Shown: in pieces, positions 4,436 through 29,031 of the stretch | How positions within the stretch are numbered: position 1 is the stretch's first letter | Layout of the letters: each line of letters starts with the position of its first letter | Source: Candidatus Collinsella stercoripullorum | GTDB lineage: Bacteria; Actinomycetota; Coriobacteriia; Coriobacteriales; Coriobacteriaceae | Assembly (NCBI GenBank): GCA_019117005.1 | Contig: DXAO01000014.1 | Span: 124,001 to 188,000 of the forward strand | Direction of reading: 5' to 3' | Length of the DNA stretch: 64,000 nucleotides | Position numbers and translations under genes: made by a program | Notes under the pieces: generated by a model | Told to the model about the DNA's origin: nothing | What the model saw: only the letters and a program-made list of their open reading frames with translations | Database searches by the model: none

Positions 4436-4510
4436 GCGGGCATCGCCAAGTGGTAAGGCATCAGCTTCCCAAGCTGACACTCGCGGGTTCGAGTCCCGTT
4501 GCCCGCTCCA
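4436..4510 (+). tRNA. tRNA-Gly (anticodon CCC)
   Basis: This is a complete 75-base cloverleaf with CCA encoded. The acceptor GCGGGCA pairs with TGCCCGC, the anticodon loop TTCCCAA gives anticodon CCC, and the T-loop is TTCGAGT. The 3' end from the T-loop onward is repeated downstream at 4673. Confidence 0.95.
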
Positions 4511-4713
4511 GGAACTTCAAGGCACCGGCGACGGTGCCTTTCCCGTTTCCGGGCCCATCTCGGGGACTCGAACCCGATGGGGTCGCGAGGCTGCGGGAAA
4601 GCGCGAGAGTTCCCCAGCGAGCGCGCGAGGGGGCCGCAGGCCCCCGGAGCATGCGGGCGCCGCAGGCGCGCGCGAGTCCCGTTGCCCGCTCCAGGAACTT
4701 CAAGGCACCGGCG
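4490..4713 (+). repeat. tRNA-linked hairpin unit downstream of tRNA-Gly (183-bp period)
   Basis: A perfect 41-base direct repeat (4490-4530 and 4673-4713) runs from the tRNA T-loop through the CCA end into the left arm of the terminator. Between the copies lie an inverted copy of the tRNA T-arm (4563-4576, GGGACTCGAACCCG) and three hairpins: 4590-4617 with a GCGA-containing loop, 4629-4645 (GGGGGCC/GGCCCCC, loop GCA) and 4657-4669 (GCGCC/GGCGC, loop GCA). The same layout follows tRNA-Lys and tRNA-Ser. The second tRNA piece is only a 3' fragment and cannot be a functional tRNA. Confidence 0.9.
4519..4547 (+). terminator. terminator of tRNA-Gly
   Basis: The stem GGCACCG/CGGTGCC with a GCGA loop (4521-4538) is followed by TTTCCCGTTT. 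Only its left arm is carried into the downstream duplicate. Confidence 0.75.
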
Positions 4714-5153: not shown

Positions 5154-6497
5154 ATGATCGACCGCTACACCCGTCCCGAGATGGGCCACATCTTCTCGCT
5201 CGAGAACAAGTACCGCATCTGGCAGGAGATCGAGGTCCTCGCCTGCGAGGCGCACGCCGAGATGGGTAAGATCGGCATCACCCGCGAGGAGGCGGCGTGG
5301 ATCCGCGAGCACGCCGACTTCAACAAGGAGGAGGTCGACGCCATCGAGGCGGTCACCAACCACGATGTCATCGCGTTCCTCACCAACATGGGCGAGTACA
5401 TCGACCGCGACGTGCCCGAGGGGGAGCCCAAGCCGAGCCGCTGGGTCCATTTCGGCATGACCAGCTCCGACCTCGGCGACACCGCTCTGTGCTACCAGCT
5501 CGTCCAGGCGACCGACATCATCCTCGATGACGTGAAGAAGCTCGGCGAGATCTGCCTCCGCCGCGCCTTCGAGCAGCGCGACACCCTCTGCGTCGGCCGC
5601 ACCCACGGCATCCATGCCGAGCCGATGACCTTCGGCATGAAGTTCGGCAGCTGGGCCTGGGAGCTCAAGCGCGATTACGACCGCCTGAAGGAGGCCCGTT
5701 CCAACATCGCCTACGGCGCGATCTCCGGTGCGGTGGGAACCTACTCGTCCATCGACCCGTTCATCGAGGAGTACGTCTGCGAGCACCTGGGTCTTGTGCA
5801 CGACCCGCTGTCCACGCAGGTCATCAGCCGCGACCACCACGCCTACCTCGCCTGTGTGCTCGCCACCACGGCGGCGACCTGCGACCGCATCGCGACCGAG
5901 ATCCGCAACCTCCAGAAGACCGACACCCTCGAGGCCGAGGAGCCGTTCCGCAAGGGGCAGAAGGGCAGCTCGGCCATGCCGCACAAGCGCAACCCCATCA
6001 CCCTCGAGAAGGTCTGCGGCCTCTCGCGCATCGTGAAGGCCAACGCGCAGGTCGCGTTCGACAACGTCGCCCTGTGGCACGAGCGCGACATCTCCCACAG
6101 CTCCGCCGAGCGCGTCGCGCAGGCCGACAGCTTCATCGCGTTGGACCACATGCTGCACTGCCTGATCCGCATCGTGGACGGCCTCATTCTCTACCCCGCC
6201 CAGATGCTGGCGAACCTCAACAAGACGCGCGGCCTCATCTACTCGTCCAAGGTGCTGCTCGCGCTCGTGGAGACCGGCATCACCCGCGAGGAGGCCTACG
6301 CCATCGTTCAGGAGAACGCCATGGCGACGTGGCGCGAGGTCCAGCAGTGCGAGGCCGGGACCACCTTCCGCGAGAAGCTCGAGGCCGATCCGCGCTGCAC
6401 CGTCCCCGCCGAGCAGCTTGACGAGATCTTCGACCCCCGCGCGTTCCTGACCCGCGTCGACGTGGTGTTCGACCGTCTGGAGCAGCTCGAGTTCTGA
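5154..6497 (+). CDS. purB: adenylosuccinate lyase
   Basis: This cytosolic enzyme of purine synthesis cleaves SAICAR to AICAR and adenylosuccinate to AMP, releasing fumarate. The protein is 447 residues, close to the family norm. It carries the fumarase/aspartase-superfamily signature SSAMPHKRNP near residue 270, the loop with the catalytic serine, plus the early GRTHGIHAEP and TSSDLGDT motifs. The ATG has AAAGGAGC about eight bases upstream. A -10-like TATACT lies at 5105-5110, but I find no good -35 partner. purC, another purine gene, lies 13 kb away and is not part of the same operon. Confidence 0.97.
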   Translation: MIDRYTRPEMGHIFSLENKYRIWQEIEVLACEAHAEMGKIGITREEAAWIREHADFNKEEVDAIEAVTNHDVIAFLTNMGEYIDRDVPEGEPKPSRWVHFGMTSSDLGDTALCYQLVQATDIILDDVKKLGEICLRRAFEQRDTLCVGRTHGIHAEPMTFGMKFGSWAWELKRDYDRLKEARSNIAYGAISGAVGTYSSIDPFIEEYVCEHLGLVHDPLSTQVISRDHHAYLACVLATTAATCDRIATEIRNLQKTDTLEAEEPFRKGQKGSSAMPHKRNPITLEKVCGLSRIVKANAQVAFDNVALWHERDISHSSAERVAQADSFIALDHMLHCLIRIVDGLILYPAQMLANLNKTRGLIYSSKVLLALVETGITREEAYAIVQENAMATWREVQQCEAGTTFREKLEADPRCTVPAEQLDEIFDPRAFLTRVDVVFDRLEQLEF

Positions 6498-6521
6498 TCG
6501 CGGCGGCATATCCGTTCCCGA

Positions 6522-6556
6522 CGGGGGCATCCGGTTCACCCGGGTGCCCCCGTTTT
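6522..6556. terminator. terminator between purB and the convergent luxR-type gene
   Basis: The stem CGGGGGCAt/gTGCCCCCG encloses CCGGTTCACCCGG, which itself pairs, and is followed by TTTT on the plus strand. It ends purB. The minus-strand gene ends at 6629 and may also use it. Confidence 0.7.
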
Positions 6557-6628
6557 CCATCGCGTCCGCTGCGCGTGCGGAGCCGCATCCGCGAAGCGGC
6601 GCCGACCGATACCACGCCGGGGTACCCG

Positions 6629-8197
6629 CTACGCGCGCGGGGAGCCGTACTCGGCGATGTAATCCAGGATCTCCTGCCGCGAATGCAGGTCGGTCTTCTC
6701 GTAGATGCGCTTGATATGCGAATGGACCGTGTTGGGGGAGAGGTGGAGCTCCTCGCTCACGCGCGCCTGGGTGTGGCCGAGTGCGTAGAGCGTCAGGACC
6801 TCGATCTCACGGCCGGTCAGCCCGAACCTGCTGCCCATCTCGATGACCGACGTGGCGGTGTGGACGTCGGGCGTGCGGTTGACCATGGCCGGGGGGTTGT
6901 GCGGCGAGATGGCGAGCACGCCCATCAGGGGGATCCGGCGGATGTCGTCCTCCGTCACGGGCGCGCTCCCGCGCCCCGCGGCCTCCTGCTGGCGCTCGAC
7001 GCGCTCGCTCGGCGAGGAGAGTAGCTTGGTGAACACCACCTGCGCGGCGATGAGCACGAACAGGCTCATGATCGAGATGAGCACCGGGGTGTTTTCGGGG
7101 AACACCCGTCCGATCAGGTTGTCGGCGCGCATGCCGCAGACGAGCAGCAGCGTCATGGTGATCCATCCGACGCCGCAGTAGTAGTACGGGTCGCGCCAGC
7201 CGAAGCTGATGAAGGCGATGGTGAGATACCACAGGAACGCCTGGAGCACCAGGGACGATCCCATGACGAAGGCGGCGCCGACCGAGATGGTCTTGGGCCA
7301 GATGGAGAAGAAGACCGCACCGAGGGCGAGCAGGACCTGCATGACGACCCAGATGCTCGTGGTGATGGCCCGCATGCGCGAGGCGAGACCGAAGCGCACC
7401 CACTGCAGGGAGACGCCCACCACGAACACGAGGACCATGAAGCGCGGCACCGTGCTCATGTAGATGGCCGCGCCGTCGGAGAAGCCGAGCCCCATGCCGG
7501 TGGGGATGGAGATGAACCATATCCCGAGCATGGCGACGGCGAGGAAGCTGCGGTTCGAGAACCGGTCCTCGTCGGTGCCGAAATAGGATTCGGAGACGGC
7601 GGGGAAGGGGTCGCCGGCGGCGCCGAGGATGCGCGACGCCCGCACGGCGACGAGCTGGGCCGCGGTGAGCGGAATGCCGGCCAGGTACCAGACGAGCTCC
7701 TGGGAGAAGCTGAGGACGAAGGTCGCGAACTCCGAGAGGGCGAGCGCGCAGAACACGACGATGACCGCCGCCTGGGCGGAGGTCCCGCGCAGCTTGCGGA
7801 GCCAGTAGAACTTCACCGCGGTGCTCCCCGCCGCCACGCCCGCCTGCAGCCCGGCGGCCACGGGGAGGGCGAGCCCGGACCTCGTCGCCGAGGCGAGGGC
7901 GAGCGCGGCGCAGCACGCGCCCGCGAGCAGGAGCGAGGCGTTGAGGAAGCGGGAGACGAAGCGCTTGGTGAAGCGCGCGACCGAGAGCGTGGAGAGGTAG
8001 AGCGCCGCGAGGGCGACGGCCGCGAGCAGCATCCCGAGCCCGTTGAACGTCGACACCCCCGTGGTCCGGTGCGCCTGCTGGACCACGACGTTCACGACGG
8101 CGGAGGAGAGCGCGAGGCCGGCGACGGGGGGAATGAGCACCCGATAGGTGCCGAAGGTCACGGGCGGCATGCCCTGATCGCTGTCGCTCTGCTGCAC
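6629..8197 (-). CDS. LuxR-family regulator with a multi-pass membrane domain
   Basis: About 450 N-terminal residues form some twelve hydrophobic helices. The last roughly 65 form a LuxR-type helix-turn-helix (TGREIEVL, then LSPNTVHSHIKRIYEKTDLHSR). Such fusions are common and numerous in Coriobacteriia, where they are thought to sense membrane or extracellular signals and control neighbouring redox genes. I chose GTG at 8197 because GGGGGAG lies six bases upstream. A TTG at 8212 is in frame but has no ribosome site. The gene diverges from the redox cluster at 8330, which is its probable target. Its ligand cannot be read from the sequence. Confidence 0.85.
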   Translation of the reverse strand: MQQSDSDQGMPPVTFGTYRVLIPPVAGLALSSAVVNVVVQQAHRTTGVSTFNGLGMLLAAVALAALYLSTLSVARFTKRFVSRFLNASLLLAGACCAALALASATRSGLALPVAAGLQAGVAAGSTAVKFYWLRKLRGTSAQAAVIVVFCALALSEFATFVLSFSQELVWYLAGIPLTAAQLVAVRASRILGAAGDPFPAVSESYFGTDEDRFSNRSFLAVAMLGIWFISIPTGMGLGFSDGAAIYMSTVPRFMVLVFVVGVSLQWVRFGLASRMRAITTSIWVVMQVLLALGAVFFSIWPKTISVGAAFVMGSSLVLQAFLWYLTIAFISFGWRDPYYYCGVGWITMTLLLVCGMRADNLIGRVFPENTPVLISIMSLFVLIAAQVVFTKLLSSPSERVERQQEAAGRGSAPVTEDDIRRIPLMGVLAISPHNPPAMVNRTPDVHTATSVIEMGSRFGLTGREIEVLTLYALGHTQARVSEELHLSPNTVHSHIKRIYEKTDLHSRQEILDYIAEYGSPRA

Positions 8198-22116: not shown

Positions 22117-22192
22117 GGGCCGTTAGCTCAGCTGGCAGAGCAGGGGACTTTTAATCCCAAGGTCTAGGGTTCGAACCCCTAACGGCCCACCA
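22117..22192 (+). tRNA. tRNA-Lys (anticodon TTT)
   Basis: A complete 76-base cloverleaf with CCA encoded. The acceptor GGGCCGT pairs with ACGGCCC, anticodon loop CTTTTAA, T-arm GGGTTCGAACCC. A -10 box TACAAT lies at 22102-22107, leaving nine bases to the tRNA. No clear -35 is seen. Confidence 0.96.
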
Positions 22193-22408
22193 CAGGTACG
22201 AGAGGGCCTCGGCGACGGGGCCCTTTTGGTTCCGGGCTCCGTGCGGGGTTCGAACCGATGAGGTCGCGAGGCTGAGCGAACGCGCGAGCGTTCGCCAGCG
22301 AGCGCGCGAGGGCGGCGGGAGCCGCCCGGAGCGCGCGGACGCCGCAGGCGGACGCGAACCCCTAACGGCCCACCACAGGTACGAGAGGGCCTCGGCGACG
22401 GGGCCCTT
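22172..22408 (+). repeat. tRNA-linked hairpin unit downstream of tRNA-Lys (183-bp period)
   Basis: A perfect 54-base direct repeat (22172-22225 and 22355-22408) runs from the T-loop through CCA and the whole terminator. The copies are 183 bases apart, the same distance as at tRNA-Gly. Between them are an inverted T-arm copy (GGGGTTCGAACC near 22244) and three hairpins: GCGAACGC-GCGA-GCGTTCGC flanked by GCTG/CAGC, GGGCGGC/GCCGCCC, and CGCC-GCA-GGCG. The core is clearly homologous to the Gly and Ser units. Confidence 0.9.
22203..22226 (+). terminator. terminator of tRNA-Lys (first copy)
   Basis: AGGGCC pairs with GGGCCCT around a GCGA-type loop, followed by TTTT. The arms are repeated at the end of the downstream unit (22386-22409), where CTTCTTAT follows. 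Confidence 0.65.
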
Positions 22409-25767: not shown

Positions 25768-26661
25768 CTACAGGCCGGGCCGCCGCTTGCTGCGCTGGCG
25801 GCGATGTCGCTTGAGGCGGTCGAGCGCCTCGCGCTTGCGCTCGTCGCGGCGGCGCGACTCGATGTCGGCCTGGACGCGCTCGCGCCGGCTCTCGAGCTCG
25901 TCCGCGGAGCGCGTGGTGGTGATCGAGTGCGCGGCGGCGTTGCGGACCTGCCGGCGCGACTTATGGATGACCTCGGCGATCTCCACATCGGTGGGGCTCT
26001 TGATATCGAAGTGCAGCGACAGGTAGCGCAGGATCATCGTGACCGCGACGCATACGATCAGCGAGATGATATGGGAGACGCCGGAGCTCGCGAGGACCAC
26101 GTAGGCGATGGCCCCGCCGACGGCGGCGACCGCGTAGAAGTTGCTGCGCTGGAAGATGGCGGGCGTCTGCCCGAGGCAGATGTCGCGCAGCATGCCGCCG
26201 CCGACCGCCGTGAAGAAGCCCATCATGACGCAGATAATCGGCTCGAAGCCGTAGGCGTAGGCCTTGTCGGCGCCCGTCGCGGCGAACAGGCCCACGGCGA
26301 AGATGTCGAGGACGGCGATGAGGCGGTCCTGCCGTTCCACGAACGAGGGGATGACGAACACGACCGCGGCCGTGATCATGGAGGCGGGGAGGGCGAGCGG
26401 CTGGCTGATGAAGTAGACGCTGCCCACCTGCAGAATCACATCGCGGATGAGGCCTCCGCCCAGGCTGCAGAGCACCGCGAGCGCGATGGCGCCCACGAGG
26501 TCGAGCCGCTTCTCGCGGGCGGTGAGCGCGCCGCTGATCGACGAGACGACGATGGCGAGCATCTCGAAGCCGATGGGGACGGCCACCATGGCCCCCGCCC
26601 CGGCGGCGCTTGCGTTGATGGCCCCGATGGCGGGCACGGCTATGGAGAGCAGGGCGGGCAT
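25768..26661 (-). CDS. TRIC/UPF0126-family membrane channel
   Basis: The 297-residue protein has seven hydrophobic helices in two repeated halves, each with the family's Gly-rich GGGxxRD motif (LGGGLIRDVIL and VGGGMLRDICLG). These mark TRIC-type trimeric cation channels. It probably conducts K+ or other monovalent cations across the cytoplasmic membrane. About 85 extra residues at the C-terminus are strongly basic and Arg-rich (likely coiled coil), longer than in typical members. ATG 26661 has AAAGGGA six bases upstream. It is convergent with typA. The tRNA-Ser repeat units lie immediately upstream. Confidence 0.88.
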   Translation of the reverse strand: MPALLSIAVPAIGAINASAAGAGAMVAVPIGFEMLAIVVSSISGALTAREKRLDLVGAIALAVLCSLGGGLIRDVILQVGSVYFISQPLALPASMITAAVVFVIPSFVERQDRLIAVLDIFAVGLFAATGADKAYAYGFEPIICVMMGFFTAVGGGMLRDICLGQTPAIFQRSNFYAVAAVGGAIAYVVLASSGVSHIISLIVCVAVTMILRYLSLHFDIKSPTDVEIAEVIHKSRRQVRNAAAHSITTTRSADELESRRERVQADIESRRRDERKREALDRLKRHRRQRSKRRPGL

Positions 26662-26729
26662 GCGGTCCCTTTCGGTTCGGTCGGACACGGTGCCTAGTGT
26701 ACACGGAGCGGAACCGGTGGGTGGCGTCG

Positions 26730-27123
26730 ACCGGCGGCGCTTCGCGCGCCGGTCCCGCTTCGGGCGGCTCCGCCGCCCTCGCGCACTGCGCTGGCAAAGA
26801 CGCTCACGCGCTTTGCGCAGCTCCGCGCCCTGCGGGTTCGAATCCCTCTCGCCCTCGGCTGAGAGGAGCTCCGGGCCTCGGAGGATTACCTTGTTGATAG
26901 GGGTGGCTGGCGGAGAGAGAGGGGACGGGGGGATGAGGCTGAGGGATATCCGCCGGGCTGCGCCCGGCTCCCGCTTCGGGCGGCTCCGCCGCCCTCGCGC
27001 GCTGCGCTGGCAAAGACGCTCGCGCGCTTTGCGCAGCTCCGCGCCCTGCGGGTTCGAATCCCTCTCGCCCTCGGTTGAGAGGAGCTCCGGGCCTCGGAGG
27101 ATTACCTTGTTGGTAAGGGTGAC
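26730..27123 (-). repeat. two tandem tRNA-linked hairpin units downstream of tRNA-Ser (216-bp period)
   Basis: Read on the minus strand after tRNA-Ser there are a spacer, an inverted T-arm copy (GAGAGGGATTCGAACCC), three hairpins (GCAAAG..CGC-GCGA-GCG..CTTTGC, GGGCGGC/GCCGCCC, GCCGGGC/GCCCGGC), then a second 3' tRNA fragment (26908-26923). The whole pattern then repeats. Copies are offset by exactly 216 bases (for example CCCGCTTCGGG at 26754 and 26970) and differ at only a few positions. The last unit has a diverged third hairpin and no final tRNA fragment. The core matches the Gly and Lys units. Confidence 0.88.
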
Positions 27124-27213
27124 TGGCGGAGAGAGAGGGATTCGAACCCTCGGAACGCTCGCGCGCTCAACGGTTTTCAAGACCGCCGCATTCAACCGCT
27201 CTGCCATCTCTCC
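27124..27213 (-). tRNA. tRNA-Ser (anticodon TGA)
   Basis: A 90-base class II tRNA with a long variable arm and CCA encoded. GGAGAGA pairs with TCTCTCC, the anticodon loop is CTTGAAA, and the T-arm is GGGTTCGAATCCC. A -10 box TATCAT (minus strand, 27224-27229) lies just upstream. The order tRNA-Ser, tadA, SRP RNA is seen in several Gram-positive groups. Confidence 0.95.
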
Positions 27214-27267
27214 GTGACTGGTAATGATAGCATCGAACCCGATGGCGTGAGAAGGTGGGAGGACGAC

Positions 27268-29031
27268 GTGGATACTTGCGGGACCGACGAGCGCTTCATG
27301 CGCGAGGCGCTGGCCGAGGCCGCCCGCGCCGCCGAGCTGGGCGAGGTGCCGATCGGCGCGGTGGTCGTGTACGACGGACAGGTCATCGCCCGCGCCCACA
27401 ACCTGCGCGAGCACGACGAGGACCCCTCGGCGCACGCCGAGTTCTCCGCCATGCTCGCCGCCGCCCGCGCCCTCGGTCGCTGGCGCCTCACCGGATGCAC
27501 CGTCTACGTCACGCTCGAACCGTGCCCCATGTGCGCCGGGCTCATGGTCAACGCCCGTGTCGACCGCTGCGTGTACGGCGCGCGCGACCCCAAGGGCGGG
27601 GCGGTCGGGACCCTGTACGACCTGAGCTGCGACAGCAGGCTCAACCATGCGTTCGCGGTGCGCTCCGGCGTGCTGGAGGAGGAGTGCGCGGCCCAGCTCA
27701 GGGAGTTCTTCGGATCCCTGCGCGCCGCGCGCAGGGACGGCGCCTCGGAGACGCCCGCCGTCGAGCCGAGCGCCCCCGCCGCCTTGCATCGCCCCTCTCC
27801 CGCCTCCGGCCCGGCTCCCGCCCCGCGGGTCCTGCTGGCCGTGGACTCCTTCAAGGACTCCCTGTCGAGCCCCGAGGCCGAGCGCCACATCTCCCGGGGC
27901 ATCCTGCACGCATGCCCGGGCGCGGAGGTGAGGTGCCTGCCCGTCGCGGACGGGGGAGAGGGCACCCTCGACGCCGTCTCGGCGGCGCTGGGGGGCGTGT
28001 CGCGCACCCTCGAGGTCGCGGGTCCGCTCGGCGAGCCCGTCCGCGCCCGCTACGTCCGCGCGGACGGTCCGGACGGGCCGATCGCCGTCATCGAGATGGC
28101 GGAGGCGGCGGGCATCGAATACTCCCCGCGCACGCACGAGGCCGCCCTGCGCGCCTCGACCCGGGGCGTGGGGGAGCTTCTCGCGGACGCGGTCCGGGGC
28201 GGTGCGGAGACGGTGTACTTCGCGATCGGCGGAAGCGCGACGAGCGACGGGGGCGCGGGGTTCCTGCAGGCGCTCGGCGCCCGGCTGCTCGATGCGGCGG
28301 GGGAGCCGATCGGCCCCGGCCTGGCCGGTCTGGCGGACCTGCGCTCGATAGACCTCGGCCCGGCGCTCGAGATGCTGTCCGGCCGCCTGCTCGTGGTCCT
28401 GTCCGATGTCGACAACCCGCTCGTGGGAGCGCGCGGCGCCGTCGCGGTCTACGGGCCGCAGAAGGGGCTGGCGCTCGATTCCGACGGCGCGTGCGGCCTC
28501 GGCGTGCTGGACGGGTGGATGGTCGCCTACGGGCGCCTGCTCGACGCCGCGCGGGGGGCCGGGGCGGAAGGCGGTGCGTCGCCGGCGGCCGGCGGGAGGC
28601 GCTTCCGCTCGGTGCTCGGGGTGCCCGGAGCCGGCGCGGCGGGAGGGCTCGGCGCGGCGCTGCTCGCGCTCGGCGCGCAGATGGTGTCGGGGGCCGATGC
28701 GGTCCTCGACCTGGTGGGCTTCGACGCCGCGCTCGACGATGCGGATCTGGTGGTCGTCGGGGAGGGCGCCATCGACGGGCAGACGGCGCGCGGCAAGGCG
28801 CCCGTGGGCGTCGCGCGCCGCGCGAAGCGGCGGGGAAGGCCGGTCATCGCGGTCGCGGGGTCGCGCGCGGAGGACCTCGATGCGGTGTACCGGGCCGGCA
28901 TCGACCTCGTGCTCCCCATCATCCGGCGCCCCATGACGCTCGGCGAGGCGCTCGACCCCGAGGAAGCGGCGGAGAACCTGCGCTGCGCCGGGGAGGCCGT
29001 CGTACGCGCCTACCTGCTCGGCAAGCTGTAG
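27268..29031 (+). CDS. fusion of tRNA adenosine deaminase (TadA) and glycerate kinase
   Basis: The protein is 587 residues. Residues about 1-155 form TadA, which converts A34 of tRNA-Arg(ACG) to inosine: HAEFSAM supplies the Zn His and catalytic Glu, and PCPMCAG the two Cys. A Pro/Ala-rich linker follows. Residues about 187-587 form a complete type-2 glycerate kinase (VLLAVDSFKDSLSS, GGSATSDGGAGFLQALG, VVGEGAIDGQTARGKAPVGVA), which phosphorylates glycerate with ATP. No stop or frame change separates them. GTG 27268 is chosen because GGGAGG lies five bases before it. Earlier in-frame GTGs overlap the tRNA-Ser promoter. The kinase half is unexpected. Confidence 0.88.
   Translation: MDTCGTDERFMREALAEAARAAELGEVPIGAVVVYDGQVIARAHNLREHDEDPSAHAEFSAMLAAARALGRWRLTGCTVYVTLEPCPMCAGLMVNARVDRCVYGARDPKGGAVGTLYDLSCDSRLNHAFAVRSGVLEEECAAQLREFFGSLRAARRDGASETPAVEPSAPAALHRPSPASGPAPAPRVLLAVDSFKDSLSSPEAERHISRGILHACPGAEVRCLPVADGGEGTLDAVSAALGGVSRTLEVAGPLGEPVRARYVRADGPDGPIAVIEMAEAAGIEYSPRTHEAALRASTRGVGELLADAVRGGAETVYFAIGGSATSDGGAGFLQALGARLLDAAGEPIGPGLAGLADLRSIDLGPALEMLSGRLLVVLSDVDNPLVGARGAVAVYGPQKGLALDSDGACGLGVLDGWMVAYGRLLDAARGAGAEGGASPAAGGRRFRSVLGVPGAGAAGGLGAALLALGAQMVSGADAVLDLVGFDAALDDADLVVVGEGAIDGQTARGKAPVGVARRAKRRGRPVIAVAGSRAEDLDAVYRAGIDLVLPIIRRPMTLGEALDPEEAAENLRCAGEAVVRAYLLGKL

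Follow-up and report, generated by a model that had tools for sequence, protein, structure and literature searches.

Tandem structured repeats behind tRNA genes of Candidatus Collinsella stercoripullorum share the anatomy of the Escherichia coli tyrT/RtT repeats

The repeat array behind tRNA-Ser(TGA)

The window analysed here is a stretch of 64,000 nucleotides of the Candidatus Collinsella stercoripullorum genome (assembly GCA_019117005.1, contig DXAO01000014.1, positions 124,001 to 188,000 of the forward strand). Its minus strand carries a tRNA-Ser(TGA) gene followed by a tandem array of hairpin-rich units, beyond which lies a TRIC channel gene (PF03458) reading from about 26661. A direct-repeat search of the window placed 26744-26923 and 26960-27139 in one direct-repeat family of 180 nt with 95% identity and a spacing of 216, in agreement with a preliminary description of this locus as two tandem units with a 216-base period and few differences. 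Read along the tRNA strand, the array comprises:

27124..27213, minus strand: tRNA-Ser(TGA), called by ARAGORN and by Rfam RF00005; the units mirror its T-arm, GAGGGTTCGAATCCCTC
27063..27123, minus strand: proximal flank x1, 61 nt, from CCA to the inverted T-arm
27050..27062, minus strand: inverted T-arm of unit 1 (rcT), GGGATTCGAACCC, 13/13 identical to the reverse complement of the tRNA-Ser T-arm
26948..27049, minus strand: body of unit 1, made up of hairpins capped by GNRA and C(GNA)G loops
26941..26947, minus strand: ATCCCTC, first part of the repeated tRNA-Ser 3' fragment, with about 22 extra bases next to it
26908..26923, minus strand: remainder of the repeated tRNA-Ser 3' fragment, 16 nt, CCCTCTCTCTCCGCCA, ending in CCA
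26847..26907, minus strand: flank x2, a repeated copy of x1
26834..26846, minus strand: rcT of unit 2, an inverted T-arm copy
26731..26833, minus strand: body of unit 2, with a third hairpin (26731-26752) unlike that of unit 1 and no tRNA fragment after it

Unit 1 thus runs from the 61-nt flank through GGGATTCGAACCC, the hairpins, ATCCCTC, the extra bases and CCCTCTCTCTCCGCCA into flank 2 and unit 2, and the two bodies are 97% alike. The 16-base tRNA-Ser 3' fragment previously placed between the units is present, as the second part of a longer fragment that is interrupted by about 22 bases, and the distal unit does have the diverged third hairpin and the missing final tRNA fragment ascribed to it. 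The array ends about 70 nt from the TRIC start codon, as had been stated. The suggested effect of the array on the TRIC gene found no backing, as no promoter-like or terminator-like site was identified between array and gene. A terminator scan of the proximal flank x1 likewise identified no T-run terminator. Elsewhere, the window contains a Corio-PBP RNA (RF02945, 56423-56496) and a bacterial small SRP RNA (RF00169, 29684-29779).

A family of units behind tRNA genes

The array behind tRNA-Ser is one of many in this genome, in which 18 of 51 tRNA genes (tRNA-Ser and 17 others) carry a unit; ARAGORN made 52 calls in the examined loci, one of which was dropped for want of a T-loop. In carriers, the rcT lies 51-61 nt after CCA and matches at 11-13 of 13 positions, whereas all remaining tRNAs reach at most 10 matches at scattered offsets. 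When the unit was used as a query against the whole genome, 15 places were recovered, of which 13 share their locus with a tRNA gene. The general layout on the tRNA strand is the tRNA, a flank of about 55 nt, the rcT, a hairpin body of about 95 nt, the last 18-20 nt of the tRNA with CCA, and the next unit. Two further carriers lie within the window:

22117..22192, plus strand: tRNA-Lys(TTT), carrier (ARAGORN)
22245..22362, plus strand: unit behind tRNA-Lys, with rcT (22245-22257), body and initial bases of the repeated tRNA fragment
4436..4510, plus strand: tRNA-Gly(CCC), carrier (ARAGORN)
4563..4680, plus strand: unit behind tRNA-Gly, with rcT (4563-4575), body and initial bases of the repeated tRNA fragment

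From the T-loop past CCA and up to the rcT, the sequence recurs on either side of the body as a direct repeat of roughly 75-90 bp. This flank-body-flank arrangement is clearest at tRNA-Glu(TTC), where 77 bp, comprising the tRNA from the T-loop on and the flank, are identical on both sides. The repeated tRNA fragment starts in the T-loop in the units listed, and in most complete units it is identical to the tRNA at 17-18 of 18 positions, even where the downstream flank has diverged. The sequences show that the unit combines an inverted host T-arm with a body of about 95 nt that folds and with the repeated last 18-20 nt of the tRNA. It amounts to about 110 nt of hairpins and contains no gene or recombinase. 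Short ORFs were called across units and an apparent spurious tRNA-Ala call falls inside one of them (L010); both come from the repeat.

Unit ends follow the host tRNA

The rcT agrees with its own tRNA at the variable T-loop positions. At nt 59 this holds in 97 of 101 places, where random pairing would give 43.0, and at nt 60 it holds in 92 against 69.1; some places may have been counted repeatedly, and related genomes are not independent. The safer figure comes from 43 distinct tRNA/rcT pairs, whose summed identity of 494 exceeds the permuted mean of 439.6 (sd 5.1, maximum 458 in 5,000 shuffles); four of these pairs score below 10/13 and are not units, and such rows were left out of later counts. 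Among the listed pairs, mismatches at nt 59 and 60 in true units are changes of A to G, which keep a wobble pair with the tRNA fragment. The same correspondence extends to tmRNA (ssrA), which hosts units in two relatives (L122 and L132), the rcT being the reverse complement of the tmRNA's own T-arm.

At one locus behind tRNA-Gln (L223 1499-1610, genome G021), T-arm, acceptor, CCA and flank form a perfect inverted repeat with arms of about 51 nt, the mirror half running through flank, CCA, acceptor and T-arm ahead of the hairpin body. This is the product expected of fold-back copying. If the rcT had arisen by fold-back at the terminator hairpin, mirror symmetry around the terminator should be general; this was not supported, with 38 of 82 cases within 3 nt against 31.8 after shuffling. 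Complementarity of the flank to its own acceptor strand was marginal (3.56 versus 3.39, sd 0.083) and was dropped.

Predicted fold and likely selected strand

The body is predicted to fold into a closed junction, the closing stem of which pairs the rcT with the repeated tRNA end. Four divergent copies including the window's adopt such a fold with RNA parameters (z -3.6 to -5.5), and the body of unit 1 with its closing stem reaches -74.6 kcal/mol (z -3.57). The common fold largely disappears when DNA parameters are used. RNAalifold recovered 31 pairs, 14 of which show double-sided changes. Of 81 distinct complete units, 78 fold more stably as the tRNA strand than as its complement (mean -69.5 versus -63.8 kcal/mol), and the first-hairpin loops are GNRA in 51 of 58 cases, a figure used in preference to a separate loop count that was conditioned on G..A loops. 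G-T versus A-C pairs revealed no strand bias, with 4 versus 1 in hairpin B and 1 versus 4 in hairpin C. Taken together, folding and covariation suggest that the selected form is likely a single-stranded RNA of the tRNA strand. Many flanks elsewhere resemble, by eye, a hairpin and T-run terminator, while a strict terminator scan identified none behind the tRNA-Lys and tRNA-Gly of the window. Since many flanks look like intrinsic terminators, bodies would usually fall outside the tRNA transcript, which counts against the interpretation preferred below.

Distribution

A covariance model of the unit identified copies in 22 of 23 relatives of the same genus and in one genome of another genus (E 0.005). 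Eleven of the 12 loci found by a pattern scan belong to Collinsella and one to Candidatus Limicola. The pattern of T-arm, CCA and rcT matched in at most 37 of 396 genomes of the phylum, an upper bound because adjacent tRNAs with palindromic T-arms produce false positives (most of L209-L215); the reversed control pattern was absent among the matches listed. Two distant genomes (G299 and G383) share the anatomy with unrelated bodies, and in G299 bodies 87% alike stand behind two different tRNAs, each closed by the end of its own tRNA. An odd tRNA called as Cys(GCA) was also seen in G299 (L226 1656-1745), with an apparent long variable arm and the look of a selenocysteine-type tRNA.

Searches of 50,697 phage and 72,556 plasmid records returned no matches, and carriage by phages or plasmids was rejected. 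Scans of viral contigs gave a single contig (L201), in which the unit was read as flanking DNA. The same contig encodes a large serine integrase (5602-7281), and its prophage directly borders a tRNA-Lys array.

Copy-number turnover and probable movement between tRNA genes

The number of begun units at a given tRNA differs between species, as tallied over 95 arrays with an assigned genome: one, two or three at Glu-ttc and at Ala-cgc, and either one (truncated) or three at Thr-tgt. The copy-number comparison at orthologous tRNAs that had been proposed as a check on active turnover accordingly revealed variation, and the genomes compared do not share one copy number and sequence of the kind that would mark a fixed ancestral structure. 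Among the 83 arrays that remained after dropping those without a repeated fragment or too close to the locus end, the last unit is incomplete in 81, and 25 stop inside the rcT or within 8 nt of it. The earlier view of insertion or copying always beside the tRNA, with the older copy pushed outward and decaying, is borne out as far as turnover and decay of the distal copy are concerned. Its other part, that every unit is a fresh insertion next to the tRNA, found no such support. Two begun units occur in 38 arrays, 12 of which have bodies at least 95% alike, a pattern that fits local duplication by recombination between repeats. In the other 26 they are less than 80% alike, partly because the second unit is truncated.

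Several comparisons separate the history of the body from that of its flanks. The bodies behind Thr-cgt and Lys-ttt are identical over 60 nt (100%) between flanks that are 74% alike, and in G021 those behind Arg-cct and Arg-acg share 97% identity between flanks of 55%. Flank similarity is 0.676 between genomes at the same tRNA versus 0.54-0.55 between tRNAs. At Ala-tgc, G015 and G016 have differing body types (0.62) between orthologous flanks (0.82). tRNA-Arg(ACG) offers a comparison between species rather than between strains of one species: the native flank stands alone in G015, G016 and G000, and G022 retains only an inverted T-arm remnant, whereas G021 and G008 carry units, one a single unit and the other three begun units of differing type. 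As the flank is present in the three unit-free genomes, it is read as native and the body as foreign. Among strains of one species, no insertion was caught. The body tree, built on few columns, is poorly resolved and groups partially by tRNA (Leu-caa, Phe, Lys-ttt), which indicates that some copies were inherited in place.

Two loci of G016 (L112 behind tRNA-Gln and L113 behind tRNA-Thr) continue after the repeated tRNA end with a common unrelated sequence, AAAACAGCAGGTCAGACACGGTA..., possibly another repeat or an island border. In G013 (L148), the 5' part of tRNA-Lys is replaced and its 3' part is kept together with the units, which resembles a displaced tRNA end.

Relation to RtT and other known systems

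The tyrT repeats and the RtT RNA of E. coli were described decades ago and have been regarded as a single-locus curiosity; RtT is a stable RNA released from the tRNA transcript. The RtT covariance model (RF00391; rttR, tpr), which describes the repeats of the tyrT/tyrV operon, recovered four copies in E. coli as a positive control. It gave no match in the window at its gathering score, and relaxing the threshold to an E of 1 over 26600-27300 brought none either. The units of the window are not RtT by model and are of the RtT kind by anatomy. In both, the final ~19 nt of the tRNA, CCA included, form part of a tandem unit, and an inverted T-arm about 50-62 nt after CCA pairs with this fragment to close the fold. 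In E. coli tyrV/RtT the inverted T-arm (14/17) lies at +62, compared with +50 to +62 for the Collinsella rcT, and the 19-nt tRNA 3' end with CCA recurs at +159, +337 and +515 with a period of 178, compared with about +157 to +180 for the Collinsella fragment. Hairpins with C(GNA)G loops occur in both bodies, and two E. coli units, when folded, have an 8-bp closing stem between inverted T-arm and tRNA fragment; a closing stem between these parts is also predicted in Collinsella. A further E. coli unit lies between tyrT and tyrV. The two differ in scale, as RtT is confined to one locus and one tRNA, whereas Collinsella units occupy up to 18 tRNAs per genome and tmRNA in two relatives. Furthermore, the body sequences are unrelated, the E. 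coli inverted T-arm is mismatched in the loop whereas that of Collinsella is tailored to each tRNA, and no T-run was seen in the E. coli flank, in contrast to the terminator-like appearance by eye of many Collinsella flanks.

REPs are short extragenic palindromes with GNA-type hairpin loops that occur in many copies per genome, a description that Collinsella units share with REP/BIME elements. Contrastingly, Collinsella units are tied to tRNA 3' ends, copy the target into the end of the element and lie between direct repeats of 75-90 bp. With tRNA-targeted integrative elements of the tyrosine-integrase type they share a boundary in the T-loop, a tRNA that stays complete and a displaced 3' fragment, and they differ in lacking an integrase, in their size of about 110 nt, in the repetition of the native flank and in having near-identical bodies behind different tRNAs.

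A literature search identified no paper on tRNA-tail repeats of Collinsella or on their link to RtT, with most subscription journals, including those of the older tyrT papers, outside its coverage. The part of PMC8040213 that was available describes no such units in its text, and the available part of PMC2817692 contains nothing on such repeats; PMC10888264, in the part available, concerns another repeat. According to the accessible part of PMC2267715, clusters related to tRNA were removed in that study, which may be the reason why such families were missed.

Origin of the units and alternative explanations

The tRNA-Ser units are more likely than not an array belonging to a family of mobile structured repeats that sit directly behind tRNA and tmRNA genes and resemble the E. 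coli tyrT/RtT repeats in kind. Once a body lies between two flanks, arrays probably grow, shrink and are lost exactly via recombination between the direct repeats, as the copy-number differences and near-identical tandem bodies argue. Distal copies probably decay because no flank but the first is of use to the tRNA, consistent with the incomplete last units. Bodies would also move between tRNA genes, with the tRNA left intact each time, to which the near-identical bodies between dissimilar flanks point. The match of rcT and tRNA could be made at insertion or maintained by fold-back copying, and in the latter case template switching within the inverted repeat of T-arm and rcT might keep the rcT identical to its tRNA. 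No mobilising gene was found near the units.

Several other explanations were weighed against this reading. The units could be RNAs that serve the host, either as regulators or as aids to tRNA processing, selected behind particular tRNAs with tandem copies being incidental. The strong fold of the tRNA strand, its GNRA loops and compensatory changes would suit such a role, as would the conservation of the repeated tRNA fragment despite flank divergence and the presence of units in nearly all relatives of the genus (22/23). We nevertheless regard it as unlikely, since presence at a given tRNA varies by species, many units are truncated and the last one is nearly always incomplete (81/83). In addition, GGG/CCC T-stems occur in 13 of 18 carriers versus 10 of 33 non-carriers in the genome studied here, a bias that looks like a target preference and not an amino-acid role. 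A further possibility is that an ancient unit at each tRNA has only been duplicated locally in tandem, with no movement between tRNAs and with gene conversion making the bodies alike. This would account for the body clades that follow the tRNA and for tandem copies that are often at least 95% alike. It sits poorly with the differing body types between the orthologous Ala-tgc flanks of G015 and G016 and with relatives that have no unit at a given tRNA, and as the sole process it appears quite improbable.

Movement by known enzymes was considered as well. Integrases classically use the T-loops of tRNA and tmRNA genes, as far as the portions of the literature available to us describe it, and the repeated fragment starts in the T-loop in the units listed, which would be expected if the units were footprints of a tyrosine recombinase, each a minimal island with a tRNA 3' end. 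Islands bring their own tRNA end and flank, whereas here the flank is native and differs between tRNAs with near-identical bodies; moreover, no cargo-bearing unit was seen and the phage and plasmid records (50,697 and 72,556) held no match, so we give this origin little credence. An even slimmer chance is assigned to a REP/RAYT-type element that the RAYT-like Y1 transposases of Collinsella would mobilise. Of the 18 Collinsella genomes searched, 16 have Y1_Tnp genes, the exceptions (G001 and G005) having only one and three model hits, and RepRanger lists rttR as REP-containing, in what is a table entry only (PMC12306157). No unit was identified in 18 loci, 17 of them around Y1 genes (best E 0.97), which leaves these transposases without the flanking copies typical of RAYTs, and G014 has Y1 and no unit. 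To our knowledge, REPs give no long direct repeat of their target. Beside one Collinsella Y1 gene (L169), other palindromes, GGGAAAATAGGGAC, were found near 1176-1206 and 1769-1799, which form a separate repeat family. A reverse transcriptase as general mover was rejected, as RVT_1 exceeded the curated cut-off in only 5 of 18 Collinsella genomes and did not in the other 13; with the enzyme so often not above this cut-off in carrier genomes, assignment to a retroelement class was rejected too.

Beyond the genus, we tentatively raise a broader idea, which is possible and rather doubtful: the units may belong to a class of very small mobile elements, spread across phyla, that incorporate a copy of the target tRNA as they replicate. 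The inverted T-arm and the 3' tail would then be templated by the tRNA gene that was entered, via fold-back template switching or an RNA intermediate, and the tyrT repeats of E. coli would represent an isolated survivor of this class.

Implications

The favoured interpretation, mobile repeats of the tyrT/RtT kind, carries a practical warning for annotation, as ORFs and tRNA calls within units may stem from the repeat. In a genus outside the phylum of E. coli, the same anatomy is found behind as many as 18 tRNAs per genome and, in two relatives, behind tmRNA, and one more lineage shows it with an unrelated body. This would point to a recurrent kind of element, and the correspondence between its ends and the host tRNA provides a testable rule. 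The units of Collinsella thereby offer many natural replicates for studying the origin of such repeats, the production of RNA from them and their effects on tRNA 3' ends.
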